Below, one piece after another: positions 1-17,745 of a stretch of 21,762 bases of DNA; the first letter of the stretch is position 1, and each line of letters opens with the position of its first letter. The stretch is from a virus. Location of the stretch: positions 1 to 21,762 of IMG/VR virus record IMGVR_UViG_3300008267_008024; one strand, 5' to 3'. The notes under the pieces are model-generated. The model worked only from the letters and a program-made list of their open reading frames with translations. It did not search any database and had not been told where the DNA came from. The position numbers were made by a program, and so were the translations under genes.

Positions 1-318
1 GATATTATATTAATACGCAACGTTGGAGAACGTTTAAAGAAGTTTTATTCACTATCAGATAACTTGGATAAAATGATTTCAGCATTCTGTCATATCGTCG
101 ATACTACCTTAGAAGAAAAAGTTTTATCTGTTGGATGGTGGGGTATGATTATCAAATCAAATAAAACATTATTCCTAGAATCATCAGCTGATGTATATCA
201 ATCGGTACGTTGTAAAAATGATAGATTATCTGATGCAATTGCAAACTTTCATCAAAACAAATTATTCGTATTAGGAAGCCAATTAAGCACTAAAGTAACA
301 AAAAAATCACAGGACTAA
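1..318 (+). CDS. Unknown protein, cut by the left edge
   Basis: The frame is open from the first base to the TAA at 316-318, giving at least 105 residues with the N-terminus outside the window. A TTG at 64 could serve as a start, but the frame continues upstream without a stop, so a truncated longer gene is more likely. The visible part is mixed alpha/beta in character, with a hydrophobic centre (VGWWGMII) and a basic C-terminus (KVTKKSQD). I see no catalytic motif, membrane helix or zinc site, and I do not recognise the family. The stop codon overlaps an ATG (TAATG) that opens only a two-codon frame. The next real gene starts at a TTG four bases further on, so the two are probably read from one message. 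Confidence 0.6.
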   Translation, partial: DIILIRNVGERLKKFYSLSDNLDKMISAFCHIVDTTLEEKVLSVGWWGMIIKSNKTLFLESSADVYQSVRCKNDRLSDAIANFHQNKLFVLGSQLSTKVTKKSQD

Positions 319-322
319 TGAG

Positions 323-709
323 TTGAAAACACAATTATTATGCACATTTGCACATAAATCAGATTTAAATATAATAGTAGATTACATACAAACTAATTAT
401 ACAATACCGGAACGAAGAATATTCGTATTTTCAAATTCTACAGCTCCGGAAAATGTATATTGCACATATAATGCAGACGCTGGTACTCAACGAGGACAGA
501 ATACTATAAGCATTCACAGGAAAAAAGAAACTAATACGTTATATACAGTTAATGCACTTAATGAAGTGATACGAGAAGTTAACAACGGAGTATTAGATAA
601 AACATATCAGTTGGATTGGCAACGTTATCAAAATTCATTCATACTTACAGATGAATCTGGATATCGAATTATCAACTTGGTATTTTTTAAGAAAATTGCC
701 TGGCAGTAA
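323..709 (+). CDS. Conserved T4-like phage protein of unknown function, TTG start
   Basis: This 128-residue protein starts MKTQLLCTFAHKSDL if the TTG at 323 is the start. That N-terminus resembles a conserved hypothetical protein I recall from marine T4-like phages (MKTKLLCTF...), which supports the TTG despite its rarity; no ATG exists nearby in this frame. The middle (about residues 30-55) contains RRIFVFSNSTAPENVYCTYNA, typical of a small beta-rich fold. The C-terminal half carries alternating aromatic and charged residues and ends FFKKIAWQ. No catalytic motif, signal peptide or membrane span is seen. It lies four bases after the preceding gene and 25 bases before the next, consistent with one transcript. 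The function is unknown; the link to T4-like phages is from memory. Confidence 0.6.
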   Translation: MKTQLLCTFAHKSDLNIIVDYIQTNYTIPERRIFVFSNSTAPENVYCTYNADAGTQRGQNTISIHRKKETNTLYTVNALNEVIREVNNGVLDKTYQLDWQRYQNSFILTDESGYRIINLVFFKKIAWQ

Positions 710-734
710 TATTTATATATAGAAAAGGATTATA

Positions 735-1436
735 ATGAAAAAAAATACATTAGCAGAAAATATGCAACGTTTTGGTACTAAGAATCTAGATGAAGCTGGT
801 AAGTTTTATAAGGGTTCTAGATACAATGATGAACCATTTAAGTTTGGTGACGATAAACGATCATTAGCTACAAAAACTAATCCTGAGTGGGATGCATTTG
901 TAGATAAATATAATAACACTCCTGGCTTTGAAACATCAACATCTGCAGACGGTACGAGTTATAAAGCAGAAATCACAAATTTAGAATCTGGATTAAAATG
1001 GGTTGTTATGAACCAAAAAGGTAACAATTGGTCTTACGTAGGACGAGATCCAAGTTATTTAGGAAACCCAGAGTTTTGCCGAGATGCAAAAGAACTTATT
1101 GCAAACTTCGAAGAAATAAACGGAACTAGTATGGCAGAGAATATGCGTCGTTTCGGTACTAAGAATCTAAAAGAAGATGGAGACCAAAACAATGATGGAT
1201 ATCCTGATGAAACTGAAAAAATCATGATGTTGGCAAGAAATAAAGGATCCAAGTTCGTTTTAGTAACTCCACAAGTATGGAATGATATGGACGAAGAGGC
1301 ACAAGCTAATGCATTATTATCAGTAGTAAAAGATCCAGACGAAGCCGAAAGATATATTGGTGTTGACTTTAATGAATTACCGAGTGAAATAACAAGCAAC
1401 ATGATGGTGTTTGTAAGAACTGGTAACTTTTCATAA
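735..1436 (+). CDS. Unknown protein with a duplicated LAENMxRFGTKNL motif and a possible calcium loop
   Basis: This 233-residue protein has a good ribosome site (AAGGA, 5 bases before ATG). Residues 6-18 (LAENMQRFGTKNL) recur almost exactly at residues 133-145 (MAENMRRFGTKNL), so the protein looks like two units, each opening with the same short tag. After the second tag comes GDQNNDGYPDE (about residues 149-159), which fits the DxNxDGxxD calcium-loop pattern of dockerin-like and thrombospondin-type repeats. The first unit (about 20-130) has features of a small globular domain (WVVMNQKGNNWSYVGRD). I do not recognise either unit. In large phages, short N-terminal tags shared between proteins can act as capsid-targeting or protease-cleaved peptides. 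That is only a hypothesis here. The gene precedes a promoter-bearing gap and probably ends its transcription unit. Confidence 0.65.
   Translation: MKKNTLAENMQRFGTKNLDEAGKFYKGSRYNDEPFKFGDDKRSLATKTNPEWDAFVDKYNNTPGFETSTSADGTSYKAEITNLESGLKWVVMNQKGNNWSYVGRDPSYLGNPEFCRDAKELIANFEEINGTSMAENMRRFGTKNLKEDGDQNNDGYPDETEKIMMLARNKGSKFVLVTPQVWNDMDEEAQANALLSVVKDPDEAERYIGVDFNELPSEITSNMMVFVRTGNFS
750..788 (+). repeat. Tag repeat, copy 1 (LAENMQRFGTKNL)
   Basis: Thirteen codons near the start of the 735-1436 gene. They match copy 2 at 1131-1169 at 33 of 39 bases, with most changes silent or conservative. The similarity extends weakly downstream (DEAG against KEDG). Confidence 0.8.
1131..1169 (+). repeat. Tag repeat, copy 2 (MAENMRRFGTKNL)
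   Basis: Second copy of the tag, at residues 133-145 of the same protein. It begins with an in-frame ATG at 1131, so the second unit could once have been, or could still be, a separately started protein. Confidence 0.8.
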
Positions 1437-1471
1437 CATAAAAATAAACAAAAAAAAACTTAACTAATTAC

Positions 1472-1501
1472 TTTGAATTACCGAATTAATTATCTATATT
1501 A
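1472..1501 (+). promoter_or_regulatory. Promoter of the SSB gene (TTTG-19-TATATTA)
   Basis: TTTG at 1472-1475 and TATATTA at 1495-1501 are separated by 19 bases. This matches the spacing of Bacteroidota -33/-7 promoters. Three other gaps in the window carry the same pattern. The surrounding 110-base gap (1437-1546) is otherwise featureless AT-rich DNA. The expected transcript start near 1508 leaves a leader of roughly 40 bases. Confidence 0.55.
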
Positions 1502-1546
1502 TAATTAATAAATACATAAATTAATAACTTAACAAAAGGCAAAATT

Positions 1547-2323
1547 ATGGCTTTAAATTTAGATGCTATCAAAGCAAAACTTAACCAATTAAACAAGAGT
1601 GACGAAAAGAAAAACAATTTGTGGAAACCAGAATCTGGTAAGACACGTGTTCGTATCGTTCCTTATGTACACAGAAAAGACAATCCGTTCTTAGAATTGT
1701 ATTTTCATTATGACATTGGTAAAAAATCAATGTTATCACCAATCACATTTGGTAACGCAGATCCAATCGTAGAATTCGCAGAAAAATTAAAAAAGACAGG
1801 CGATAAAGACGAATGGTTAATGGGTCGTAAAATTGAACCTAAGATGCGTACTTATGTACCTGTAATCGTTCGCGGTAAAGAATCAGAAGGGGTAAAATTC
1901 TGGGGCTTCGGTAAACAAATTTACACTGAATTATTATCAATCATTTCAGATCCAGATTATGGCGATATTACCGACTTAATGAATGGTCGTGATATCGATG
2001 TAGAATTTACACCAGCTGAAGGGGGAGGATTTCCTAAAACAGCAATTCGTGTAAAACCAAATACTCAACCTGCGACCGAAGATAAATCAGTTGCTGAGAA
2101 AATTATGAATCAGCCTGAGATTACAGATATCTTCCCGGAGCCATCATATGATGAATTAGAAAAAGCATTAGCTGAATGGATGAATCCTGAAAATGCAGAT
2201 TCTGATGTGTCTGATGATGAAGAAGAAACAACATCGGCACCAGCAGCACCAGCAAAAACTTCAAAGCCAGTAGCAGGTAAAGTTGATGATGTTGCATCAG
2301 CATTCAATGATCTTTTCAATTAA
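1547..2323 (+). CDS. 32: gp32-like single-stranded DNA-binding protein
   Basis: This 258-residue protein coats single-stranded DNA at the fork and organises the phage replisome. The N-terminus (residues 1-30) is a basic segment analogous to the cooperativity region of T4 gp32. Residues 25-170 resemble the gp32 OB-fold core as seen in marine T4-like phages (KTRVRIVPYVHRKDNPFLEL, MRTYVPVIVRG, VKFWGFGKQIY). An acidic, Pro/Ala-rich linker (about 205-240) leads to the tip DDVASAFNDLFN, the expected docking tail for partner proteins. The protein contains no cysteine, so the zinc module of T4 gp32 is absent. The gene has its own likely promoter and an AAAAGG ribosome site. It is followed 10 bases later by the uvsX remnant, the usual recombination partner. 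Confidence 0.88.
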   Translation: MALNLDAIKAKLNQLNKSDEKKNNLWKPESGKTRVRIVPYVHRKDNPFLELYFHYDIGKKSMLSPITFGNADPIVEFAEKLKKTGDKDEWLMGRKIEPKMRTYVPVIVRGKESEGVKFWGFGKQIYTELLSIISDPDYGDITDLMNGRDIDVEFTPAEGGGFPKTAIRVKPNTQPATEDKSVAEKIMNQPEITDIFPEPSYDELEKALAEWMNPENADSDVSDDEEETTSAPAAPAKTSKPVAGKVDDVASAFNDLFN

Positions 2324-2333
2324 GGAGTTATAA

Positions 2334-3351
2334 ATGGCAAAGAGTAAAAGCAAACTAGAACTGGAAGATGCGTTAGCAAACACCTTAGCAGATAGTATTA
2401 ATAAGCAGTTTAAAGGTCAATCATTAAAAACGGCATTCTTTTTAGATGGCGATGATGATGCACCTAGCAATGTTAAGGATTGGATTTCATCAGGTTGCGA
2501 TTCACTCGATTTAGCAATTTCAAATCGACCGAACGGAGGATTCCCAGTAGGTCGAATTACTGAAATAACCGGATTAGAAGCAATTAGAGACAATTGAAGA
2601 AATATTCGAAACAATTGAAACTATAGTTGAGCAGGTTCGTAAGTCAAATAAAGATCGTTTGGTTACAATCGTAGTAGATTCAGTAATGGGAGCATCAACA
2701 AAAATTGAAATGGCTGCTGAATATGACAAGGATGGTTATGCAACAAGCAAATCAATTATTCTTTCAAAAGCAATGCGAAAAGTTACAAATTGGATTGCTC
2801 GAGAAAACATTTGTCTAATATTTACCAACCAACTTCGAACAAAATTAGGTGTTTCTTTTGGCGACGCTTGGACAACATCTGGTGGTAAAGCAATTCCATT
2901 CCATGCATCAGTTCGTCTTCGATTGAAAAACACAGGTATGATCAAAGCAAAGATTAATGGTGTCGAACAAGTAGTTGGAAGTAAAACTGAGGTTCAAGTT
3001 GTTAAGAATCGAATGGGTCCGCCACATCGTAAAGTAAATTATGATATCTACTATGATAGTGGTATTGATAATTTTGGTGGTTGGTTAGAAATCATGAAAA
3101 AGTTTGATTTAGTTAAACAAGCAGGTGCTCATTACACATTAGAAGATGTAGATCATGAAACAGGCGAAGTGTTTGGCGAAATTAAATTTCAATCAAAAAA
3201 CTTTGTAGAAAAGGTTATTGAAAATAAAGAAGTTCGAGATCGTTTATATCATAGGATCTGTGATGCTTATATTTTCAAATATCAAGCAGGTATCGATGGT
3301 GGCATTGATGATGTTATTATAGATGAATCAGTTATAGATGAAGAAGGCTAA
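2334..3351 (+). pseudogene. uvsX: UvsX/RecA-like recombinase broken by an internal deletion and frameshift
   Basis: UvsX is the phage RecA-family strand-exchange ATPase. The 5' part (2334-2597, 87 residues) begins normally after an AAGGAG site and reads GGFPVGRITEITGLEA, the strand leading into Walker A. It then reads four more codons to a TGA at 2595-2597. The rest continues in another frame from about 2581 (QLETIEEIFETIETIVEQV), through the Walker B strand (VTIVVDSVMGAS) and loop 2 region (TSGGKAIPFHASVRLRL), to an acidic C-terminus at 3351. The Walker A loop (GKS) and about 45-50 following residues are missing, so this is a deletion rather than a simple indel or an inserted intron. The deleted length must leave remainder 2 when divided by 3. 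Without Walker A the product cannot be an active ATPase. An assembly error at a short homology is equally possible. Confidence 0.82.
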
Positions 3352-4415
3352 TGAATAAGTATCAAGAGCTCTTTAAAAAGTTACAACAAGAAAAGGTAAA
3401 CTCCCCATCGGATGTCAATGATCATATCATGGTATTCGATGGGTTGAATACCTTCATCCGTGCTTTTGGAGCAACACCCTCAACAAATGAAGATGGAGAA
3501 CATATCGGTGGAATTACTGGATTTTTGTTTTCTATAGGAAAAGCAATACGAGATTTCAAACCTAGCAGATGTATAATCGTATTTGATGGTCGCGGAGGTT
3601 CTGCTCGTCGTAAAAAAATATATAGTGATTATAAAGGTAATAGAGCTAATAAAACCAGATTGAGAAGGCATGATCATCAGAATTTTGCTACAATTGAAGA
3701 CGAGCAAGAAGCAATGCGTTATCAATTCAGTCGATTAGTTTCATATCTAGATAATCTACCTGTTACTTTTATTGCAATTGATGGAATTGAAGCAGATGAC
3801 ACTATTGCATACATTGCACAGATGTATGAGGAACAAGCAAAGAAACTTACTATAGTATCTACGGATCGAGATTTCTATCAATTAATTAGTCCAACATTAC
3901 AAGTATGGTCTCCAATTAAAAAGAAAATGTATGATACCGAAACTCTGTTAGAGGAATTTGGTGTTCATCCAAATAACTATGTGGTGTACCGAACGTTTAC
4001 AGGTGATACCTCAGATAATATTCCAGGTGTAGATGGATTTGGTCCAAAAACAATATTAAAGACCTTTCCAGAATTAGCAGATGAAAAGGAATTTACTTTA
4101 GAAGATTTGCAACAAAAATGCAATGATAAAATACTTTTAAATGAAGGTAAAGGTTTTCAGAAAGTATTAGATAGTTATGATATTATTGATAAAAACTATC
4201 AACTTATGAATATTAAATTGTTAAACATTCCAGCACAGAATGCTAGTACAATTAGAGGTATTATGCAACAAGCAATACCTACTTTAAATAAAATGGAATT
4301 TCAACGTTTGTTCATGGAAGACAAAATGTGGACTACTATGAAAAATCTACCAGAGTGGTTGAATAACACCTGGCTATCGCTAAATGCATTTGCAATGCAA
4401 ACAAATAACAAATAA
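3351..4415 (+). CDS. rnh: 5'-3' exonuclease / flap endonuclease (T4 RNase H type)
   Basis: This 354-residue FEN/PIN-family nuclease removes RNA primers and flaps from lagging-strand fragments. Metal-binding acidic residues sit in the expected order: D30 (VFDGLNTFIRAF), D79 (VFDGRGG, followed by the basic arch RRKKIYSDYKGNR), E147-A-D-D150 (GIEADDTIAYIA), D172 and D174 (STDRDFYQL), and D219/D222 in TGDTSDNIPGVDGFGPKT, the helix-hairpin-helix entry. The length is somewhat greater than the 305 residues of T4 RNase H. The ATG overlaps the uvsX stop (TAATG), so its translation is probably coupled to uvsX. This is one reason the uvsX lesion may matter for expression. The family assignment is firm; the T4 rnh equivalence rests on context. 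Confidence 0.9.
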   Translation: MNKYQELFKKLQQEKVNSPSDVNDHIMVFDGLNTFIRAFGATPSTNEDGEHIGGITGFLFSIGKAIRDFKPSRCIIVFDGRGGSARRKKIYSDYKGNRANKTRLRRHDHQNFATIEDEQEAMRYQFSRLVSYLDNLPVTFIAIDGIEADDTIAYIAQMYEEQAKKLTIVSTDRDFYQLISPTLQVWSPIKKKMYDTETLLEEFGVHPNNYVVYRTFTGDTSDNIPGVDGFGPKTILKTFPELADEKEFTLEDLQQKCNDKILLNEGKGFQKVLDSYDIIDKNYQLMNIKLLNIPAQNASTIRGIMQQAIPTLNKMEFQRLFMEDKMWTTMKNLPEWLNNTWLSLNAFAMQTNNK

Positions 4416-4452: not shown

Positions 4453-5820
4453 ATGACAGATAAATTAAGTGAATACGGTTGGGGCTTTCAAGTAAAAGTC
4501 TTAGCAGCAATGTTTACGGATAGAATATTTTTACAACAAATTGCAGATATTATTAGACCGGAATATTTTGAATCAGATGCAAATAACTGGTTGTTAGAAG
4601 TAATAATAGATCATTTTCATCAATACAAAACACCTCCCACAAAAGATGTTTTAAAAGTTAAATTAACTGAATTAAGTGATGATGGTCCCGAATCTATTTT
4701 AAAGACGGCAATATTAGAACAACTTAAAGATGTGTTCCGTTTTATGGAGTCTGATGATTTAACATTTGTTAAAGATGAAATTCTTAACTTTTGTAAAAAT
4801 CAAGAAATTAAACGAGCAATTATGGATTCGGTTAACCTATTAAAAATGGGTAACTATGACCAAATCAAAAGCAAGATTGATACTGCAATGAAAGCTGGGG
4901 CTGATACTAATATCGGTTTAGATTATAAAATTAATATTTCATCTAGATATGAGGAAGCTGCACGACAAACTATAACTACCGGATGGGATGTTGTTGATGA
5001 TTTAATGGATGGCGGCCTAGCTCCAGGAGAATTAGGAGTTGTAATGGCACCTGCAGGTATTGGTAAATCATGGTTGCTTATTAATATTGGTGCTAATGCA
5101 ATCAAAGCAGGACATACAGTTATTCATTATACATTGGAGCTTAATGAGAATTATGTAGGTCAACGTTATGATTCTGTGTTAACGGGAATAAATGCACAAA
5201 GTCTTAAGAACCATCAGGAAACAGTTGAAGAAAAGATGAAGACATTATCTGGCGATTTGATAGTAAAATATTATCCAACCAAGTCAGTAGGTGTTATGGG
5301 ACTCAAAGCACATTTAGAAAAAACTATCATGTTAGGCAAACGTCCAGATGTAGTTATTGTGGATTATGGTGACTTATTGAAAATCAATACAAAAAAGGAT
5401 AAACACGAAGCCTTAGAAGAACTTTACGAGGAGTTACGAGGAATGGCAGGTGAGTATTCCATTCCAGTTTGGACCGCGTCACAAGCAGGTCGAAGTGCGT
5501 TAGAAGAGGATGTTATTGAAGCAGATAAAATTGCATCATCATATGGTAAAGTGATGGTTGCTGACTTCTTAATGTCACTTTCTAGAAAGGTAGAAGATAA
5601 GATGTCAGGTACTGGTAGAGGTCACGTAATTAAAAATAGATTTGGGCCTGATGGTATAACATTGCCGAGTAAAATTAACACTAACAATGGGCAATTTCAA
5701 TTCTTCGAACCACAAACAACTCAGGGTAAACAAACTACTCAAGTTATGAAAAGTGGCGAGAATATTATGAAGAAAAATTTAGCTCAACGTTTTAAAGATT
5801 TAGGTGGGAATTTTGGATAG
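4453..5820 (+). CDS. 41: Replicative DNA helicase, gp41/DnaB-like
   Basis: This 455-residue hexameric 5'-3' helicase unwinds the fork ahead of the polymerase and, by analogy with T4 gp41, works with a primase. The N-terminal domain (about 1-140) is the helical DnaB collar (FQVKVLAAMFTDRIFLQQI). The RecA-like core follows GGLAPGELGVVMAP. Walker A is at residues 199-206 (APAGIGKS) and Walker B at 300-307 (VVIVDYGD). Motif H4 follows as TASQAGRSAL, and RKVEDKMSGTGRGHVIKNRFG carries the basic residues expected of the arginine finger region. The length is close to T4 gp41 (475). The gene follows its own likely promoter and is closed by a terminator, so it can be expressed as a single-gene unit as well as by read-through. 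No primase is seen in the window. Confidence 0.92.
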   Translation: MTDKLSEYGWGFQVKVLAAMFTDRIFLQQIADIIRPEYFESDANNWLLEVIIDHFHQYKTPPTKDVLKVKLTELSDDGPESILKTAILEQLKDVFRFMESDDLTFVKDEILNFCKNQEIKRAIMDSVNLLKMGNYDQIKSKIDTAMKAGADTNIGLDYKINISSRYEEAARQTITTGWDVVDDLMDGGLAPGELGVVMAPAGIGKSWLLINIGANAIKAGHTVIHYTLELNENYVGQRYDSVLTGINAQSLKNHQETVEEKMKTLSGDLIVKYYPTKSVGVMGLKAHLEKTIMLGKRPDVVIVDYGDLLKINTKKDKHEALEELYEELRGMAGEYSIPVWTASQAGRSALEEDVIEADKIASSYGKVMVADFLMSLSRKVEDKMSGTGRGHVIKNRFGPDGITLPSKINTNNGQFQFFEPQTTQGKQTTQVMKSGENIMKKNLAQRFKDLGGNFG

Positions 5821-5912: not shown

Positions 5913-7769
5913 ATGGAGATTTCAAACAAAATTTTGAGTGAAATTACGGTATATATGAAATATGCCAAGTACCTTCCTGAGCTCAATCGCAGAGAAACTT
6001 GGGAAGAATTAGTTACGAGAAACATGGAAATGCACATCAAAAAATATCCGACATTAGAATCGGAAATTAGAGATGCGTATACATTCGTGTATGATAAAAA
6101 AGTATTACCATCAATGCGTAGTTTGCAATTTGGTGGAAAACCAATTGAAATATCTCCTAACAGAATTTATAACTGCGCATATCTTCCAATTGATGATCAT
6201 CGCGCATTTGGTGAGGCAATGTTCTTACTATTAGGTGGAACTGGTGTTGGGTATTCTGTACAAACACATCATGTTGAAAAATTACCAGAAATACGTAAAC
6301 CGAATCCAAAAAGAACACGTAGATTTTTAATTGCAGATTCAATCGAAGGTTGGGCAGATGCAGTTAAAGCTCTTGTTAAATCTTATTTTGAAGGTGGATC
6401 CACATTTGTATTTGATTTTTCAGACATTCGTGCTAAAGGTGCTAGATTAGTTACATCAGGAGGAAAAGCTCCAGGACCACAACCACTTAAAGAATGTTTA
6501 ATTAAATTAGCAGGAATCTTAGATGCAAAAGAAGATGGTGACAAATTATCGGCAATTGAAGTTCACGATATGGTATGTCATGTTGCAGATGCAGTATTGG
6601 CAGGTGGTATACGCAGAGCAGCTCTTATTAGTTTGTTCAGCGCTGATGATGAAGAAATGATTTCATGTAAATCAGGTAACTGGTGGGAACATAATCCACA
6701 ACGAGGACGTGCAAACAACTCTGCAACATTAATGCGTCATAAATTAACAAAAGAATTCTTTATGGATCTTTGGAAACGTGTTGAATTATCTGGAGCTGGA
6801 GAGCCTGGTATTTATCTTACAAATGATAAAGATTGGGGAACAAACCCATGTTGTGAGATTGCATTAAGACCATTCCAATTCTGTAATCTTTGTGAAGTAA
6901 ATGCATCTGATGTAGAATCGCAAGAAGATTTACAAGCACGAGTAAAAGCAGCAGCATTTATTGGTACACTTCAAGCAGGATATACTGATTTTCATTATTT
7001 ACGTCCAGTTTGGAAACGCACAACTGAGAAAGATGCACTTATTGGAGTATCTATGACAGGTATCGGTTCTGGAACTGTATTAGGTTATGACATGAAAGCT
7101 GCAGCAAAAGCTGTTAAAGAAGAAAATGAGCGAGTAGCTGGATTAATTGGAATTAATAAATCAGCTCGTACGACTACAGTTAAACCAGCAGGTACAACAT
7201 CATTAGCATTAGGAACATCATCGGGTATCCATGCATGGCACAATGATTATTATATTCGTAGAATTCGCGTAGGTAAAAATGAAGCAATTTATACATATCT
7301 ATCAATTAATCATCCAGAACTAATTGAAGATGAGTATTTCCGTCCACATGACACTGCCGTAATTTCTATTCCACAAAAAGCTCCAGAAGGTGCAATTATG
7401 AGAACAGAATCTCCATTCCAATTATTAGATCGTATTAAAAAGGTACATCTAGAATGGGTTAAACCAGGTCACCGTTCAGGTAACAATACTCATAACGTAT
7501 CTGCAACAGTTTCACTTAAAGCAGATGAATGGGAATTAGCTGGAGAATGGATGTGGGATAACAAAGACCATTATAATGGATTATCAGTATTACCATATGA
7601 TGGCGGTACATATACACAAGCACCATTCGAAGATTGTAGCAAAGAAACTTATGAAACTATGATGAAATCACTTCATAACATTGATTTAAGTCAGGTTATA
7701 GAATTAGATGACAATACAGATTTATCAGGAGAATTGGCTTGTGCGGGCGGAGCGTGTGAAATCAAATAA
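5913..7769 (+). CDS. nrdJ: Class II (adenosylcobalamin-dependent) ribonucleotide reductase
   Basis: This 618-residue enzyme reduces ribonucleotides to deoxyribonucleotides using vitamin B12. The fold markers are MRSLQFGG and GGTGVGYSVQ. The reactive cysteines are C88 (NCAYLP), the thiyl-radical site C313 with E315 in NPCCEI, and C327 (NLCEVN). The C-terminus ends CAGGACEIK (C610, C615), the swinging dithiol that accepts electrons from thioredoxin. The usual Gly between the radical Cys and Glu is a Cys here (NPCCE rather than NPCGE). There is no neighbouring small subunit or activase, which supports class II. A thioredoxin at 10417 could be the reductant. The ribosome site is AAGGAG at 5899-5904. 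No cobalamin riboswitch is visible in the short leader. Many marine phages carry this class. Confidence 0.92.
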   Translation: MEISNKILSEITVYMKYAKYLPELNRRETWEELVTRNMEMHIKKYPTLESEIRDAYTFVYDKKVLPSMRSLQFGGKPIEISPNRIYNCAYLPIDDHRAFGEAMFLLLGGTGVGYSVQTHHVEKLPEIRKPNPKRTRRFLIADSIEGWADAVKALVKSYFEGGSTFVFDFSDIRAKGARLVTSGGKAPGPQPLKECLIKLAGILDAKEDGDKLSAIEVHDMVCHVADAVLAGGIRRAALISLFSADDEEMISCKSGNWWEHNPQRGRANNSATLMRHKLTKEFFMDLWKRVELSGAGEPGIYLTNDKDWGTNPCCEIALRPFQFCNLCEVNASDVESQEDLQARVKAAAFIGTLQAGYTDFHYLRPVWKRTTEKDALIGVSMTGIGSGTVLGYDMKAAAKAVKEENERVAGLIGINKSARTTTVKPAGTTSLALGTSSGIHAWHNDYYIRRIRVGKNEAIYTYLSINHPELIEDEYFRPHDTAVISIPQKAPEGAIMRTESPFQLLDRIKKVHLEWVKPGHRSGNNTHNVSATVSLKADEWELAGEWMWDNKDHYNGLSVLPYDGGTYTQAPFEDCSKETYETMMKSLHNIDLSQVIELDDNTDLSGELACAGGACEIK

Positions 7770-8091: not shown

Positions 8092-8796
8092 ATGACAGAT
8101 ACACAAAGAAAAAATTTAGAATTAGTTAAATCTGGGTTTGCAAATGGTATTTCAACTCAGTTAGCAACTAAACAAGCAATTTATGGACCAGATGCTAAAT
8201 TAACTGACCTTGAGAAACAAGAAATAATTGAAGCAGCAGCATTTCATTATGGTGAATTTCTTCGAGCATTAGGTGTTGCATGGGAACAAGATCCTAATTC
8301 GGATAATACTCCTAAACGAGTTGCAAAGGCATATGTAAATGATTTATGGCGCGGTCGTTATGAACCAATGTCAGATATCACATCATTTCCTAGTGACGGC
8401 TATGACGGCATAGTATTCGAAGGAGGTATTCCATTAACATCAATGTGTTCACATCATCATCAAACTATTGAAGGATTAGTTCATATTGCATATATTCCAG
8501 CAGAAAATGGTAATGTAGTTGGATTGAGTAAATTGAATCGAGTAGTAGAACATTTTGGTAGACGAGGTGCAATACAAGAACAATTAACAGTTGCAATTCA
8601 ACATGCAGTAGATGAACTTATTACAGATAACAAAGGAGTTGCTGTGATGATCGAGGCAACACATAACTGCGTATCATGTAGAGGTGTTAAGCATCGAGGT
8701 GCGTCTATGAAGACAGCAAAGCTATCTGGAGCATTCTTAGAAGATGGTAATGCAAGATCAGAGTTTTATCAATTTGTAAAAGGTTATAATAACTAA
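8092..8796 (+). CDS. folE: GTP cyclohydrolase I (FolE)
   Basis: This 234-residue enzyme converts GTP to dihydroneopterin triphosphate, the first step of folate and 7-deazaguanine synthesis. The zinc ligands appear as C119 and H122 (SMCSHHHQ) and C193 (THNCVSCRG). The active-site stretch VVGLSKLNRVVEHFGRR and the RGVKHRGASMKT segment follow the family order. The usual CEHH is CSHH here. An N-terminal extension of about 40 residues precedes the catalytic domain, as in many FolE enzymes. In this context (queD, queE and dpdA in the same window) it most likely feeds 7-deazaguanine DNA modification rather than folate. The gene follows a likely promoter and ends in a TAATG overlap with queD. Confidence 0.93.
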   Translation: MTDTQRKNLELVKSGFANGISTQLATKQAIYGPDAKLTDLEKQEIIEAAAFHYGEFLRALGVAWEQDPNSDNTPKRVAKAYVNDLWRGRYEPMSDITSFPSDGYDGIVFEGGIPLTSMCSHHHQTIEGLVHIAYIPAENGNVVGLSKLNRVVEHFGRRGAIQEQLTVAIQHAVDELITDNKGVAVMIEATHNCVSCRGVKHRGASMKTAKLSGAFLEDGNARSEFYQFVKGYNN

Positions 8797-9272
8797 TGGC
8801 AAGATATATTTCAACAAAATTATTTGAAAACTATTCAGTAGCACTTCGTCAATGGCGAGCTTCACATTCTCATTGTGAATTGTTACATGGATATGCTTTA
8901 AAGTTCAAAGTGTGGTTTGCATCGAATGAACCAGATATTGACAAACAATTAGATGATATGAATTGGATTGTTGATTATGGGGGTTTCAAGACACCACCTA
9001 AAGGTAATGGTTTAAAAGATTGGATGAATCATATGTGGGATCATACTTTGTTAATTGAGAAAGATGATCCGTATTTAGATTTATTTGAAACTATGGCAAT
9101 GGAAGGTATTTGTTCATTGCGAATCATGGATAAAATGGGTGCAGAATCATGTGCTAAAATGGTTTATGATAAATTCAATGAAGTTCTATCTAAAACAGAT
9201 GCTGGTAGATGTAAATGCATCAAAGTAGAATGTTTTGAAAATGATAATAATTCATCAATATACGAAGAATAA
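8796..9272 (+). CDS. queD: 6-carboxytetrahydropterin synthase (QueD), phage variant
   Basis: This 158-residue T-fold enzyme should convert dihydroneopterin triphosphate to 6-carboxytetrahydropterin, the second step to 7-deazaguanine. H24/H26 lie in ASHSH. The catalytic C27 and zinc ligand H31 lie in CELLHGY, and the D82-H83 dyad is in WDHTLLI. The canonical motif C-x3-HGH reads C-x3-HGY, so Y33 replaces one zinc histidine. I recall the same WRAxHSHCxLLHGY form in marine T4-like phages, so it is probably a functional variant rather than a decayed gene. The gene overlaps folE and the next gene by TAATG junctions, consistent with coupled translation. A more distant QueD-like gene lies at 14961. 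Confidence 0.82.
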   Translation: MARYISTKLFENYSVALRQWRASHSHCELLHGYALKFKVWFASNEPDIDKQLDDMNWIVDYGGFKTPPKGNGLKDWMNHMWDHTLLIEKDDPYLDLFETMAMEGICSLRIMDKMGAESCAKMVYDKFNEVLSKTDAGRCKCIKVECFENDNNSSIYEE

Positions 9273-9631
9273 TGGAAAGAATAGTTACAACCTGGGAAGA
9301 AAATGGTATGCAATATACAATTACAGCTAAGCCAATTACTGTAGTAAATACTCCACCCCAATCTAATACACCTAATCAGTTAATATCAATATTTGAATAT
9401 CTAGGAGGAAAGACTCCAGAACGAGGTACTGGTGATAAAGTATATAAACACGCAAAAAAAGTTGGTGCTAAATTCGAAACTAAAGATATTGAGACTAGAA
9501 ACTATACTGGTAAAATTATGTTGTATGAACGATCTTTTTTAGATGTATATTTTAATCAAAATACGTATGCCACACAACCATTATCTATGCCAGAGCCTGA
9601 AATTGAGTTTGATGATGATTTACCATTCTAA
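9272..9631 (+). CDS. Unknown protein with an SSB-like acidic tail (DDDLPF)
   Basis: This 119-residue protein has no family I recognise. Residues 36-100 look like a small folded domain with a basic helix (GDKVYKHAKKVGAKF). Residues 100-119 are an acidic, Pro-containing tail ending EIEFDDDLPF. That ending closely matches the C-terminal tip of bacterial SSB proteins (DDDIPF), which recruits replication and repair partners such as exonuclease I, RecQ, PriA and the clamp-loader chi subunit. The body does not look like an OB-fold SSB and the phage already has a gp32. It may therefore copy the tail to capture or block host SSB-binding proteins. It lies between queD (TAATG overlap) and queE (12-base gap), so it could also be part of the modification operon. 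Confidence 0.7.
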   Translation: MERIVTTWEENGMQYTITAKPITVVNTPPQSNTPNQLISIFEYLGGKTPERGTGDKVYKHAKKVGAKFETKDIETRNYTGKIMLYERSFLDVYFNQNTYATQPLSMPEPEIEFDDDLPF

Positions 9632-9643
9632 TTAGAGAAAATA

Positions 9644-10417
9644 ATGAATAAACGAATAACAGATTATAATAAGGTATTACCTATAGTTGAATTGTATAGA
9701 TGTGTACAAAGCGAAGGAAGTCGTTTCGGTAGACCTACAATTGCAGTTAGGACAACAGGTTGCACACACCGATGCTATTTTGGAGAAGGTGGTTGGTGTG
9801 ATAGTTGGTATACAAGTATTCACCCGGAGAAAGGACAATTCACATTCAATGACATTATTAAGATATATGATGAAAATCCACATATCAAAGAAATGATGTT
9901 AACTGGTGGTTCTCCAACTATGCATCCTGCATTAGTAAATGAATTGACACATTTTGCACATGAAAGAGACATTCTTATCACTATTGAAACTGAAGGTTCG
10001 CATTTTATTCACACTGATTATCCTATTGGCTTACTATCTATTAGCCCTAAGTTTAGTAATAGCGTACCCGTTTTGGGTGTTGCTACGCCGCAGGGTACAA
10101 TCACGGATCAGAAGATGGTATCCCAACACAACAAGCTTCGATTAAATTATGATGCTATGAAATCTATGATAGAATATCACACAGATTATCATTATAAACC
10201 AGTATGGGATGGCACTCCAGAAAATTTAAAAGAAATTGAAGGATTTCGTGTATTCATGAATATCCCAAAAGATAAAACATATATCATGCCAGCTGGCGAT
10301 ACTCGCGAAGAATTAATACGAATGTATCCAATTGTGTTTGATATGTGTGCTGAATTAGGATATAATATGACCGGTAGAGATCATATTATTGCATTTGATA
10401 CAAAACGAGGAGTATAA
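9644..10417 (+). CDS. queE: 7-carboxy-7-deazaguanine synthase (QueE), radical SAM
   Basis: This 257-residue enzyme rearranges 6-carboxytetrahydropterin to 7-carboxy-7-deazaguanine (CDG). It has the QueE opening VELYRCVQSEGSRFGRPT, then the iron-sulfur cysteines C40, C44 and C52 (GCTHRCYFGEGGWCDSW). LTGGSPTMHP follows as the SAM-binding GG(E)P equivalent, and ETEGSHF after that. The cluster spacing is C-x3-C-x7-C, longer than the common C-x3-C-x2-C. I recall similar spacing in marine phage QueE proteins, and other QueE enzymes tolerate altered spacing. It completes the FolE-QueD-QueE route to CDG in this operon. It ends in a TAATG overlap with the thioredoxin gene. Confidence 0.88.
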   Translation: MNKRITDYNKVLPIVELYRCVQSEGSRFGRPTIAVRTTGCTHRCYFGEGGWCDSWYTSIHPEKGQFTFNDIIKIYDENPHIKEMMLTGGSPTMHPALVNELTHFAHERDILITIETEGSHFIHTDYPIGLLSISPKFSNSVPVLGVATPQGTITDQKMVSQHNKLRLNYDAMKSMIEYHTDYHYKPVWDGTPENLKEIEGFRVFMNIPKDKTYIMPAGDTREELIRMYPIVFDMCAELGYNMTGRDHIIAFDTKRGV

Positions 10418-11727: not shown

Positions 11728-14247
11728 ATGTATCAGGCAATAGGTTATGATAGAAAAACAAGTACCATGCATATATGGGATGATGAACTAGGATATCAAA
11801 AGTTTACATTCAAACCATATGCATATTTGCCAGATAGTGCTGGACAATTTGTTTCATTGGATGGTACTAGATTGAATCGAGTAGCCGGGAATCACAAAGA
11901 TAATTCAACAGCATTTGAATCAGATTTAAATGAAGAAGTAAGAACCTTAATTGATTTATACTATGATTCTGATTTAGTTTCAAAAGGTCATCGAGATTTC
12001 TTCTTTGATATTGAGACTGCAAAGGATGAAAATGGATATAGTACTATACAGGATGTCCGCACTGCTATAACATCCATTGCATATTACGATAAAACTGGTA
12101 ATGATCGCCGAGTACTTATATTAGATGAACAAAATCGCATAAAAGAACGTGAAATTCAAGGCGATGGTTATGTTTTAGAGATATTTCGTGATGAAAGAGA
12201 CTTATTAACAAGGTTTATTAATAAATTTGCTGAAATTCAACCAACTATAATCACAGGGTGGAACACTGATGGATATGATATTCCATATATGATGGGTCGT
12301 ATCAAAAAAGTATTAGGTGCACAAGCTCTTAAGAAACTAAGTCCTGCCGGAATTGTAGACTTTAATCCTAAAAAGGATAAATGGAAAATATTTGGCGTAT
12401 CTAGTTTAGATTATTTAAAACTATATAAAAACTTCACATATTCAGAGCTTCCGAATTATCGTTTAGACACTGTTGCTAAAAAGGAATTAGGCAAAGGTAA
12501 AGTTGAATATGAAGGAGATTTAGATACGCTATTTACTCAGGATATTCATAAGTTTGCATTTTATAACATGACCGATACGGATCTTGTATATGAATTGGAT
12601 GAAAAACTGCAATTAATTAACTTAGCACGAACCATATGTCATAAAGGGCATGTTCCATATGAAGATGTGTATTATGCATCTAAATATCTAGATGGCGCTG
12701 CGATTGTAGATTTGAAACGAAATGGGTATGTTGCTCCTAACAAGCAGTTCCGATTTATTGAAGATGAAACTGCGTCAGATGCATTAGCAGGAGCTTATGT
12801 GATGCCACCTGTACCTGGATTGTATAAATGGATATATGACTTAGATTTAACATCGCTATATCCAAGTATCATCATGACACTTAATATATCTCCAGAAACT
12901 AAAATTGGAGTAATTCCAAATTGGGATGAAATGTGTTTATTGAAAAATGAACCGGTATCAGTTTCAATGACAGATAAGACATATGTACAAGATGTAAAAC
13001 AATGGTTAGCTGATAACAAATATACAATTGCAAGTAATGGTACAGTATATCGCACAGATATCAAAGGATTTTTGCCTAAGATTCTAGAAAAATGGTTTGA
13101 TGAACGTGTAGAGTTTAAAGACAAACGTGATGAATATGCAGTTGGTACTGAAGAATATAAATTCTATGATGCAATGCAGTTAACACAAAAAGTATTGCTT
13201 AACTCATTTTATGGAGTATTAGGTCTTAAGACGTTCCGTTTCCACGATTTAGATAATGCTGGTGCAATTACTGCTACAGGTCAAAGTATTATTAAATTTT
13301 CTGCAAAAGTTATTAATAACCATTATCAACAAGAAGTTGGCAATGATCATTTCATTAATGCAACTAACACAAAAGCAGAATTTGCATTTTATACTGATAC
13401 AGATTCTACCTTTGTTTCTAGTTTACCACTTATAGAAAAACGTTTTCCTGGGTATGATGAAAATGATGAGCAATTCATGATTGATAAAACCAATGAAATT
13501 GCAGATGAGGTTCAAAGCAAAGTGAATACGATGTATAATCAATATGCTAAGGTATTTTTAAATGCAGATTCACATCGTTTTAAAATTAAGCAGGAATATG
13601 TAGCTAAATCTGGTTTGTGGATTGCTAAAAAGCGTTATGCGCAATGGGTAATCTTTAAAGAAGGAAAACCTACGGATAAAATGGATATTAAAGGATTAGA
13701 TGTTGTAAGATCTAGTTTCCCAGATGCATTTAAAACGGTAATGAAGGAAACATTGTGGAATATTCTAAAAGGTAAAAGTAAACAAGATACATCTACAATG
13801 ATTTTGGATTTTAAAAAGACAATACAAAATTCTAGTACACCAATTTTAGACGTAATGAAAAATTCCGGTGTTAAAGAAATATCAAAATACACTAAAAAAC
13901 GAAAACCATTTACTGGATATATATCAGGTACTCCAGCTCATGTTAAGTCGGCAATAAATTTCAATGATGTGTTAACACAATTAACTACAGACATCGTTAC
14001 AATTAAAGATGGTGAAAAAGTTAAATGGGCATATTTGCAAGGTAATCCATATGGGTTTGATACAATGGCATTACGAGGATATCAAGATCCACCTGAAGTA
14101 GTTGCCTTTGTAGAACAATACATAGACCGAAATAAACAATTTGAAAGAGAACTTAAAGGTAAATTAGATGATTTTTATGCAGCAATGAATTGGGGAGGTT
14201 TACCAGAAAATAATAATGCTGCTAAGTTCTTTTCATTTGGAAAATAA
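11728..14247 (+). CDS. 43: Family B DNA polymerase, gp43-like
   Basis: This 839-residue replicative polymerase has a proofreading exonuclease. The exonuclease motifs are D94-x-E96 (FFFDIETA), TGWNTDGYD (176-184) and YNMTDTD (279-285). Polymerase motif A is DLDLTSLYPSII (from D371), motif B is QKVLLNSFYG (487-496) and motif C is YTDTDS (555-560). KKRYAQW follows. All catalytic carboxylates are present, so both activities should work. T4 gp43 has 898 residues, so this is slightly compact. The C-terminus ends AAKFFSFGK, a plausible clamp-binding tail. The copied guanines become the substrate for the DpdA-like enzyme encoded downstream. It ends just before a promoter-like element. Confidence 0.95.
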   Translation: MYQAIGYDRKTSTMHIWDDELGYQKFTFKPYAYLPDSAGQFVSLDGTRLNRVAGNHKDNSTAFESDLNEEVRTLIDLYYDSDLVSKGHRDFFFDIETAKDENGYSTIQDVRTAITSIAYYDKTGNDRRVLILDEQNRIKEREIQGDGYVLEIFRDERDLLTRFINKFAEIQPTIITGWNTDGYDIPYMMGRIKKVLGAQALKKLSPAGIVDFNPKKDKWKIFGVSSLDYLKLYKNFTYSELPNYRLDTVAKKELGKGKVEYEGDLDTLFTQDIHKFAFYNMTDTDLVYELDEKLQLINLARTICHKGHVPYEDVYYASKYLDGAAIVDLKRNGYVAPNKQFRFIEDETASDALAGAYVMPPVPGLYKWIYDLDLTSLYPSIIMTLNISPETKIGVIPNWDEMCLLKNEPVSVSMTDKTYVQDVKQWLADNKYTIASNGTVYRTDIKGFLPKILEKWFDERVEFKDKRDEYAVGTEEYKFYDAMQLTQKVLLNSFYGVLGLKTFRFHDLDNAGAITATGQSIIKFSAKVINNHYQQEVGNDHFINATNTKAEFAFYTDTDSTFVSSLPLIEKRFPGYDENDEQFMIDKTNEIADEVQSKVNTMYNQYAKVFLNADSHRFKIKQEYVAKSGLWIAKKRYAQWVIFKEGKPTDKMDIKGLDVVRSSFPDAFKTVMKETLWNILKGKSKQDTSTMILDFKKTIQNSSTPILDVMKNSGVKEISKYTKKRKPFTGYISGTPAHVKSAINFNDVLTQLTTDIVTIKDGEKVKWAYLQGNPYGFDTMALRGYQDPPEVVAFVEQYIDRNKQFERELKGKLDDFYAAMNWGGLPENNNAAKFFSFGK

Positions 14248-14266
14248 CATTAAATTCATTATATTA
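14236..14266 (+). promoter_or_regulatory. Promoter of the second modification block (TTTG-20-TATATTA)
   Basis: TTTG at 14236-14239, inside the last codons of the polymerase gene, and TATATTA at 14260-14266 are separated by 20 bases. The next ATG is 15 bases downstream. It would allow the nucleotidyltransferase-to-dpdA run to be transcribed apart from the polymerase. Confidence 0.5.
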
Positions 14267-14281
14267 AATAAAAAAAGTTAT

Positions 14282-14545
14282 ATGTACGGCAAACAGCAAT
14301 GGCGAGGTAGAGAAGTAGAAGGTCGATACTCAGATATCATGACTCTATTCATAAGAGAGTTAGGTGATGGTATTGATGTGGAAGATCTTCGAGACTATCC
14401 TCATTATTATTTTACAATCGAATATGTTTCTAAAATGATTCAAACTAAAAGTACTGCTCATTTTGAAGCAATTCGAGAAATTTTAGATACAACAAATGGG
14501 GTTGTTACTATAGAAGCTAATAAAGACACTTTAGATGGAAATTAA
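14282..14545 (+). CDS. Unknown small protein, conserved-looking
   Basis: This 87-residue protein starts at ATG 14282 (MYGKQQWRGREVEGRYSDIM). An upstream ATG at 14216 in the same frame lies inside the polymerase gene and upstream of the promoter, so I reject it. The N-terminus is basic and aromatic. The middle, DYPHYYFTIEYVSKMI, is an alternating strand-helix pattern, and the end is acidic. I have a faint memory of similar proteins next to polymerase genes in marine T4-like phages but cannot name a function. T4 has the translational repressor RegA near this position; this protein is shorter and I see no resemblance. Confidence 0.6.
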   Translation: MYGKQQWRGREVEGRYSDIMTLFIRELGDGIDVEDLRDYPHYYFTIEYVSKMIQTKSTAHFEAIREILDTTNGVVTIEANKDTLDGN

Positions 14546-14579
14546 TCCAGATAACTATAAATTTGACGAAGAACTATGA
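14535..14579 (+). CDS. Possible 14-codon leader peptide coupled to the nucleotidyltransferase
   Basis: An ATG at 14535, inside the end of the previous gene, reads MEINPDNYKFDEEL. It stops at a TGA that overlaps the next start (ATGA at 14576-14579). Its only likely role would be to carry ribosomes across the 30-base gap to the next gene. Chance is a fair alternative. Confidence 0.25.
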   Translation: MEINPDNYKFDEEL

Positions 14580-14989
14580 AAACTGGGGTAATAGCAGGCA
14601 ACTTCGATGTTATTCACCCAGGGTATATTCGAATGTTTCATGAATGCAAAGAAAATTGTGATTATTTTGTGGTATTGTTGCATGATGATCCTACTATTGA
14701 GCGTCCCGAGAAAATGAAACCGGTTTTAACTGTCGACGAACGACGTGAAATATTGTTTGCATTGGATATAGATACAGTTATTGCATATAACACAGAATCA
14801 GAATTATATTATATGCTAAAAGATGGTAATTATGATGTAAGATTCTTAGGTGATGATTATATCGGTAAATCTTTTACCGGTGACGATTTACCAATTCAAA
14901 TTCATTACATAAATAGAGACCATGGTTGGTCTACAACTAAATTTAAAAAATTAATAGCAGATGAAGTACAGCGTAGTAGTAACATTTAG
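14576..14989 (+). CDS. Cytidylyltransferase-like nucleotidyltransferase
   Basis: This 137-residue protein of the HIGH-type nucleotidyltransferase superfamily (glycerol-3-phosphate cytidylyltransferase group) transfers a nucleotide to a small phosphorylated substrate. The N-terminal GNFDVIHPGYI (8-18) is the GxFDxxHxGH motif with Tyr in place of the second His (HPGY). The C-terminal HGWSTTKFKK (116-125) is the ISTT motif. R57 in VDERREIL and the RFLGDDY strand also fit. I recall the HPGY form in marine T4-like phages. The natural substrate is unknown; a CDP-activated polyol or lipid head group is possible. It overlaps the QueD-like gene by 29 bases, so it belongs to the modification block, where it might supply an activated group to the glycosyltransferase. 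Confidence 0.75.
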   Translation: MKTGVIAGNFDVIHPGYIRMFHECKENCDYFVVLLHDDPTIERPEKMKPVLTVDERREILFALDIDTVIAYNTESELYYMLKDGNYDVRFLGDDYIGKSFTGDDLPIQIHYINRDHGWSTTKFKKLIADEVQRSSNI

Positions 14990-15311
14990 TATTGAAGGAT
15001 TTCATTGTTGGCCAGATGCCAAATTTGTATTTCCAGAAGTAGCATTTTTATCGGAAAGACATCGACATATGTTTGGATTTCGTTGTTATGCACATGTAAC
15101 GCATACTGATAGGGACGAAGAATTCATTCTGTTAAATAGAAAAATACAAAAAAGTCTTCGCATAGGATTCACAAGTTCCGAGACAAATATATTAGAATTT
15201 GGTTCTATGTCTTGCGAAATGATTGGTGAATGGTTATTAGATGCATTTCCTAGTTTATATAAAGTGGAAGTATGGGAAGATTTTGAAAACGGAGCAATTA
15301 TAGAAAGATGA
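14961..15311 (+). CDS. Second QueD-like T-fold protein, possible CDG decarboxylase (DpdL type)
   Basis: This 116-residue protein has the layout of the QueD/pterin synthase fold. H15 (GFHCWPDA) and H34-x-H36 (SERHRHMF) match the three zinc histidines, and VEVWEDFENGA matches the closing strand with its Glu. The catalytic cysteine expected four residues before the first His of HxH is absent (L30), so it is unlikely to make 6-carboxytetrahydropterin. I recall that phage QueD-like proteins have been proposed to remove the carboxyl group of 7-carboxy-7-deazaguanine (named DpdL), but I am not certain this is the same group. Alternatives are a binding protein or another step on the modified base. 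It overlaps both neighbours (29 bases upstream, ATGA downstream). Confidence 0.6.
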   Translation: MKYSVVVTFSIEGFHCWPDAKFVFPEVAFLSERHRHMFGFRCYAHVTHTDRDEEFILLNRKIQKSLRIGFTSSETNILEFGSMSCEMIGEWLLDAFPSLYKVEVWEDFENGAIIER

Positions 15312-16495
15312 GAAACTTATTTTATTTTGGTTTAGAACCACTTAAAGCTCGATACACATATCAGCTTTCAAAAGAATGGATGCCAGCAACATTTGCACCT
15401 TATGAAAAAGTAGGTGCGGTTAAATTTATAGATGTAGAAGGAGATTTCGATCCAGATCAACAAATTAAAGTTGGGGCTGTATTAGATGCAGTAGGCAGAG
15501 GTAAATTTGCTATGAGTCAATGTAGCAACTTCTTAGATATGTTAAATGCAGATCAAGTCAAAGATGGTGATATTATATTTTTGCAAGACTATTGGCATCC
15601 TGGAATTGAATCTATTTTGTATGCATTAGATTTATATGGCATAACGGTTAAGATATATGCAATGCTACATGCACAAAGTGTAGATGAATATGACTTCACT
15701 TGGCCAATGCGTACATGGATGCGAGGATTTGAATTAGGTTTAGACAAACGAATGTCAGGAATATTCGTAGGATCCACAATACACCGAGATCAACTCAGAT
15801 CAGCAGGATTTGAAGCACCTATACATGTAGTTTCATTGCCATTGCATAAAGAATTAACTTTAGCAAAATATCCTGAATATAGTGCACTTAGTCCTCGTGA
15901 AAATAAAATTGTATATTCAAGTCGATTTGATAAAGAAAAGAATCCTTTCTTTATGATGAAAGTAGCTGAATCATTTTTAACGGATAATCCAAATTATGTT
16001 TGGCACGTGACGACATCAGGTAAATCATTTAAATCTATGGTACCTGGTGTAATTGAAGCAATGGAAGAGTTAGCAAAACGACAACCTAGATTTAAATTGC
16101 TGAGTAATCTGACTAAAGAAGAATATTATCATGAATTAGCAACAGCTCGTATTCAATTTAATAGTTCACTTCAAGATTATGTTTCCTGGACAGTATTAGA
16201 ATCTACTTGTTTTGGTTGTGATGTAGTATTTCCAAACTTTAGATCGTTTCCAGAATTTATTCCAGATAATCGAATGTATACTCCATTTTCAGTAGTAGAT
16301 GCAGTACAGGTATTGGATCGAGTATGTAACAATGATTATAATCGTTATTATGATTTTGCAGATATAGCAGATTTAGGTAGAAGAACTGAAGCATATATCA
16401 TCATTAATGATGTGACACAAGAACTTAATGTTTGGCATGAAAAAGAATATTGCCAGCATTTAATTAATCAATATTTTAATAACAAAGGTAACTAA
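15308..16495 (+). CDS. GT-B type glycosyltransferase
   Basis: This 395-residue protein has two Rossmann-like halves. The N-terminal half (about 1-185) carries GDIIFLQDYWHPGIE and IFVGSTIHRDQL, typical of the acceptor domain. The C-terminal half starts at KIVYSSRFDKEKNPFFMMKV, the usual GT4-like entry, and ends the donor site with SWTVLESTCFGCDVVFPN followed by FPEFIPD (ExxxxGxP-like). The donor sugar and acceptor are not evident. Placed by ATGA and TAATG overlaps between a QueD-like gene and dpdA, it may decorate the modified base. Phage glycosyltransferases can also act on other DNA bases or on host surface sugars. No membrane segment is seen, so it is cytosolic. Confidence 0.8.
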   Translation: MRNLFYFGLEPLKARYTYQLSKEWMPATFAPYEKVGAVKFIDVEGDFDPDQQIKVGAVLDAVGRGKFAMSQCSNFLDMLNADQVKDGDIIFLQDYWHPGIESILYALDLYGITVKIYAMLHAQSVDEYDFTWPMRTWMRGFELGLDKRMSGIFVGSTIHRDQLRSAGFEAPIHVVSLPLHKELTLAKYPEYSALSPRENKIVYSSRFDKEKNPFFMMKVAESFLTDNPNYVWHVTTSGKSFKSMVPGVIEAMEELAKRQPRFKLLSNLTKEEYYHELATARIQFNSSLQDYVSWTVLESTCFGCDVVFPNFRSFPEFIPDNRMYTPFSVVDAVQVLDRVCNNDYNRYYDFADIADLGRRTEAYIIINDVTQELNVWHEKEYCQHLINQYFNNKGN

Positions 16496-17745
16496 TGAGT
16501 AAAAAGTTTATATACTATCCGTCGCTGTCAGCAGGATCGATGGTATCTGCTTTCAAAAAAGATACAAAGTTTAGTGATGGCACTACGATGAGATTTTTTG
16601 GAAAAGATTATCCAGAAGAATGGAGACATCCATATTTCCTAATTACGGCAGGACACCATTATAAAAAAATGGATTTCCGTCAGCAATTAGGCCTCGATGA
16701 TAATGTATTAGTATTTGGTGATTCAGGAGGTTTCCAGATTGCTACAGGTGCATTAAAATGGGATAGCACAATTCGAGAAAAAATATTTCATTGGTTAGAA
16801 GCTAATTCAGATGTAGCAGCAAACTTGGATATTCCTCCTCGTGTTACTTTTGAGAATCGTTTTCAAGATTCTATGGATATTTCATTTGATAATTTTAAAT
16901 GGTTCGAAAAACATCAATCAGGTAAAACTAAGTTTTTAAATGTTATTCAAGGAACATATAACGAAGAATATAATACTTGGTATCATAAGTTTAAAGATTT
17001 TGACTTTAACGGTTGGTGTATCGGAGGTCCTAAGCGTCTTGTAGATTTTATGTATGTAATTGCATTAATGCTTCAAGAACGTGAATTTGAGAAAGCACAT
17101 GTGCAATATATACACTTATTAGGTATCTCAAAAATATCAGATTTCTTCATATTATCGACACTACAAAAATTGTTGAATGATTTGACAAAGGGTAGAGTAC
17201 AGTTATCTACGGATTCTTCATCTCCAGGCCAATATCCGGTATATGGTACATATTTGCACTCAACTAACTATAAAACTCAAACTTTTACGGAATTGTATTT
17301 CCCTAAGAATGCCGAGTATAGAAGAAAAACTCATATTAAACAAGGCAAAGACACTGTATCAATTGATAAAACAAAACATGTCCCTTGTAGTATAGATTGT
17401 CCAGCATGTAGAGATTTTACATATGAATATTTAGGTGGACAAACACAAGACGGGTTAGATCGTTATTCGCAAGAAGGTATGCCACGTATGGTAGTTCATA
17501 ATACACATTTATATTGCCAATTGGCAAAAGATGTTGATAAGATTGTAGATAGTCATGTTGAATTGTTAGAAACAGCAATTCCAGCAGAATTATTCAATGT
17601 TATTGTATCACTACATGATATGTTTGCAGATCCAGATAATGCAATGCACGTATATTCAAAATATAAAAAGACATATAAAAAATTCGGTGGAGATTCAATT
17701 TCAACCACTGATGCAAATAAATTCGCAGAATTCTTTAAATTTTAA
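16495..17745 (+). CDS. dpdA: DpdA-like DNA guanine transglycosylase
   Basis: This 416-residue member of the tRNA-guanine transglycosylase superfamily is expected to swap guanine in DNA for a 7-deazaguanine base. D76 in FGDSGGFQIATG is the conserved acid, and D240 in STDSSSPGQ is the likely nucleophile. The zinc site is C298-x3-C302-x2-C305 with H335 or H338 (HNTHLYC). The spacing differs slightly from bacterial Tgt (CxCxxC). The N-terminus, YYPSLSAGSM, and GHHYKKMDFR are features I associate with phage DpdA rather than tRNA enzymes. With FolE, QueD and QueE in the window, a DNA modification role is much the best reading. It is coupled to the glycosyltransferase by TAATG and followed 10 bases later by the sliding clamp, which could help it travel with the fork. 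Confidence 0.85.
   Translation: MSKKFIYYPSLSAGSMVSAFKKDTKFSDGTTMRFFGKDYPEEWRHPYFLITAGHHYKKMDFRQQLGLDDNVLVFGDSGGFQIATGALKWDSTIREKIFHWLEANSDVAANLDIPPRVTFENRFQDSMDISFDNFKWFEKHQSGKTKFLNVIQGTYNEEYNTWYHKFKDFDFNGWCIGGPKRLVDFMYVIALMLQEREFEKAHVQYIHLLGISKISDFFILSTLQKLLNDLTKGRVQLSTDSSSPGQYPVYGTYLHSTNYKTQTFTELYFPKNAEYRRKTHIKQGKDTVSIDKTKHVPCSIDCPACRDFTYEYLGGQTQDGLDRYSQEGMPRMVVHNTHLYCQLAKDVDKIVDSHVELLETAIPAELFNVIVSLHDMFADPDNAMHVYSKYKKTYKKFGGDSISTTDANKFAEFFKF

Follow-up and report, generated by a model that had tools for sequence, protein, structure and literature searches.

A 146-bp gap across the Walker A segment of uvsX in a virus contig, and a candidate stop-hop site in the exonuclease genes of its relatives

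The replication block and the interrupted uvsX

The stretch of DNA analysed here, referred to as the window, is an IMG/VR virus fragment of 21,762 bp. Analysis of its genes indicated a T4-like replication block, in which a gp32-like SSB gene (1547..2323, plus strand) lies upstream of uvsX (2334-3351, plus strand, coordinates confirmed) and is followed by a 5'-3' exonuclease gene (3351..4415, plus strand) whose start overlaps the uvsX stop, a DnaB-type helicase gene (4453-5820) and a B12-type ribonucleotide reductase gene (5913-7769). The SSB and exonuclease genes, both identified with Pfam, are intact, and a family B polymerase and a clamp loader are also encoded in the window. This neighbourhood of SSB, helicase, polymerase and clamp loader resembles that of known UvsX/RecA proteins (T4 UvsX; PF00154), from which the window copy differs in having a broken frame and no Walker A segment. 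Genes for GTP cyclohydrolase I and for QueD-like, radical SAM (QueE-like) and TGT-like proteins were found at 8092-10417 and 16495-17745, and possibly constitute a 7-deazaguanine DNA modification set. An Rfam search of the window and seven related loci gave no match. With regard to N runs that might have been stripped from a scaffold, there are no N letters in the window, and among the fetched loci L021 alone contains any.

The uvsX gene is read in two frames. The 5' part (2334..2582, plus strand) comprises 83 codons ending in GLEA, directly before Walker A, and gives a weak match to PF00154 (profile positions 8-62); its frame, MAKSK...GRITEITGLEA, continues with IRDN to a TGA at 2595-2597, so that 2334-2597 encodes a product of 87 aa. 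The 3' part (2583..3351, plus strand) lies in a different frame that picks up again at KQLETIEEIFETIETIVEQVRKSNKDRLVTIVVDSVMG, reads KQLETIEEIF and proceeds through Walker B to the stop, matching positions 134-262 of the same RecA profile. Both fragments are thus collinear matches to the RecA core domain, and no single ORF spans both Walker motifs, the frame changing at 2582|2583. The P-loop (GxxxxGKS/T) is absent from the window gene, while the sequence GLEASGKS is present and gap-free in all 80 relatives retrieved from IMG/VR (79 of them full length; L010 begins inside the gene). With its frame broken and its Walker A segment gone, the gene as it stands in this contig cannot encode a working recombinase.

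Comparison of uvsX with related loci

The relative closest to the window, L003, aligns to window positions 1-4207 (4.2 kb) with 99.46% identity to the left of the break and 99.94% to the right, and carries an intact uvsX, a single frame of 387 aa whose match to RecA, over residues 21-294, reaches 186 bits. It is the sole relative near enough to belong to the same population, and comparison at that level is a comparison with one sequence. Alignment of the two showed that window 2582|2583 corresponds to L003 3098|3245, so that exactly 146 bp (L003 3099-3244) are gone. The lost segment runs from the SGKS of Walker A up to the VP preceding LETIEEIF. A first-pass annotation of the window, made without relatives, had described the loss of Walker A and the change of frame, which the L003 alignment and both reading frames bear out; it had also predicted some 140 missing bases, 45-50 residues and a remainder of 2, close to the roughly 49 codons and the remainder (146 mod 3 = 2) obtained here. 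Sizing against the uvsX of close relatives, as it had proposed, gave the same length against six relatives of lower identity than L003 (L004, L005, L006, L009, L012 and L019).

In the shared parts of uvsX the window and L003 differ at two SNPs, both synonymous and neither of them in 2583-3351, and from 2659 onward the window UvsX protein is 100% identical to that of L003. With just two SNPs and an unchanged protein, uvsX bears no mark of relaxed selection, and because the rest of the gene has not decayed the lesion is either very recent or was never in a phage. When 839 ORFs from the relatives were used to screen the window for frameshifts, the uvsX break was the sole one returned, the loci behind this screen spanning about 10 kb on each side of uvsX and stopping short of the window's far right; widespread decay of the window was rejected on this result. 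The annotated phage nearest to the window is Microcystis phage Mel-JY01 (nucleotide identity of about 66% across this region), whose RecA/RadA (PP395634; 57% identity over 95% of the L003 protein) is, unlike the window copy, encoded by an intact gene.

Lesions confined to single contigs were also seen among the relatives. In L055 a TAA (L055:9884-9886) replaces codon 119 of uvsX, a second and independent lesion of this gene; in L057 the exonuclease is affected at codon 7, and in L010 the helicase gene (L010:2038-3377) is frameshifted near codon 351-359. Such lesions amount to about 3 per 384 kb of coding sequence checked, a rate at which a single lesion in a window of 21.8 kb is unremarkable. 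In L039 the ribonucleotide reductase gene is broken at 14187-15484, where the N and C parts of an intein-like element (CFIGDTKIQ... and ...FFANGILAHN) enclose another ORF in a different frame, an arrangement that resembles a split intein of the 'fractured gene' type.

The exonuclease had been proposed to be translationally coupled to uvsX. The overlap is there, the uvsX stop (3349-3351) and the exonuclease ATG (3351-3353) forming TAATG with a GAAGG three bases upstream of the start, and the same arrangement was found in 45 of the 75 relatives compared. About a dozen relatives, however, have some 250-650 bp inserted between the two genes, so the overlap is not a general requirement. If the lesion is real, the arrangement makes some loss of exonuclease expression through polarity possible.

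Origin of the gap

The join in the window was compared with the two edges of the segment in L003. These edges read GAAGCA|TCAGG ... GTTCC|ATTAGAG, the window junction reads GAAGCAATTAGAG, and the join has 0 bp of microhomology. A 26-mer across the junction, searched in IMG/VR as an exact and as a degenerate pattern, was found in no other contig, although such a search may omit near-identical records.

The gap is probably a one-off error that arose in the library or the assembly of this contig. Either a chimeric library molecule or two sequence ends joined across a coverage dip in uvsX would have entered the assembly, and in the phage population itself uvsX would most likely be intact, as it is in L003. 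An error is favoured because the near-identical L003 is intact, because no other IMG/VR contig matched the junction, because the rest of uvsX has not decayed and because single-contig lesions turn up sporadically in the relatives too; from this we infer an origin in the library or the assembly rather than in a phage. The length of the gap is near the Illumina read length, a weak point for the same reading. Against it, the remainder of the contig looks clean, and a k-mer assembler needs at least one real spanning read to make a join without homology.

This last point also speaks for the reading that stands second, and that we regard as appreciably less probable: a genuine, very recent uvsX null, produced by a spontaneous illegitimate deletion, whose lineage survives with reduced recombination, possibly with help from the RecA of the host or from a further recombinase encoded outside the fragment. 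A non-homologous junction normally requires a real molecule, and L055 provides a different lesion in the same gene. T4 uvsX or uvsY knock-outs are viable, small-plaque and recombination-deficient (PMC3016280), so a genuine null mutant would be possible but unsurprising. The likeness is that the recombinase is lost and the phage survives; the difference is that the T4 nulls are laboratory mutants, while the window allele is a putative one from a single metagenomic contig. Further points against a null are that uvsX is intact in L003, which belongs to the same species-level population, that no second contig is known to share the junction (subject to the reach of the search), and that a deleterious allele is rarely the assembled majority sequence. 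The first-pass annotation had offered a natural recombination mutant as one of two explanations; it keeps a share of the probability but gained no positive support, given one contig, a junction absent elsewhere and no decay. If it were real, the gene would yield the 87-aa product without a P-loop, and if translation restarted at 2659 (TTG) or 2686 (ATG), the resulting C-terminal fragment would also lack the ATP-binding loop. That a whole wild, freshwater-type phage population lacks its own UvsX and relies for recombination on host RecA or another recombinase is unlikely.

The other explanation offered at first, collapse of the assembly through a short direct repeat, is highly improbable. Imperfect 10-mers at the gap edges, ATTAGAAGCA and ATTAGAGACA, do agree at 8 of 10 positions; such matches are common, however, with seven in the surrounding 1 kb, and the junction sequence itself contradicts a collapse, which would keep one copy, while the window retains both and joins them with no shared base. 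Equally improbable is a meaningful arrangement, such as a shortened UvsX kept by selection, or a deletion driven by a homing nuclease cutting at the P-loop: the left edge of the gap does fall exactly at the Walker A loop, but the frame is destroyed, no insertion, intein or deletion is seen at this place in any of the 80 relatives, and the segment has no unusual DNA structure (fold z -0.54). The latter two results also led us to reject, respectively, a former intein or intron at the P-loop and a hairpin-promoted deletion.

An in-frame TAG in the exonuclease of related contigs

In 14 related IMG/VR contigs, several of them near-duplicates of one another and the window not among them, the exonuclease frame is broken by CUU-UAG-CUU (L022, L008, L011, L016, L017, L018, L026, L031, L050, L083, L084, L087 and L089) or CUU-UAG-CUG (L092). 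The site, at L022:10817-10835, carries six extra bases (GGC CTT TAG CTT AAC; in L092 GGA CTT TAG CTG AAT), and the TAG falls inside the first conserved exonuclease motif, VFDGL-NTFIRAF. In the window protein, the Pfam 5'-3' exonuclease domain begins at residue 26. Judged from the sequences, a hop from CUU to CUU over the UAG would restore VFDGLNTF exactly. In contigs that extend far enough, 314-323 codons follow the TAG without a stop, and the first in-frame start codons beyond it lie at distances of 72 and 90 codons. The dN/dS of this part is about 0.04-0.12 where computable, a rough value with synonymous sites near saturation, which indicates that the part behind the TAG is under purifying selection. 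No in-frame stops were found in the SSB, helicase, reductase and folE genes of the relatives, and no tRNA genes in the eight loci scanned; together these speak against recoding of the TAG, with the caveat that each contig is a fragment.

Just upstream of the TAG, in the space separating uvsX from the exonuclease gene, these contigs carry an HNH/NUMOD3 homing-endonuclease-like gene (L022:10091-10726 and equivalents). Relative to L022, identity is 91-100% over the 96 bases before the TAG (80% in L083, L084 and L087) and 72-90% over the 60 bases after it, a fall that would be seen if a mobile cassette had its end close to the TAG. This suggests that the insertion may be mobile in the manner of the T4 gene 60 region. 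L049, L053 and L044 have endonuclease genes of this family but no TAG, so the endonuclease and the TAG are separable. We regard CUU-UAG-CUU as a candidate natural ribosomal stop-hop. The precedent is the bypass in T4 gene 60, which likewise adjoins a homing-endonuclease gene (PMC3014915, PMC5009743). In-frame stop hopping had been demonstrated with synthetic constructs, with no natural occurrence known, according to a 2016 review (PMC5009743), and nothing newer on natural in-frame stop hopping was found among the papers from 2016 on that were searched.

For annotation, one contig is a poor ground for calling a phage recombination-deficient. If the uvsX lesion is real, it would be a natural case of the dispensability of uvsX already known through T4 genetics, and the candidate stop-hop in the relatives matters more than the gap in the window's uvsX.
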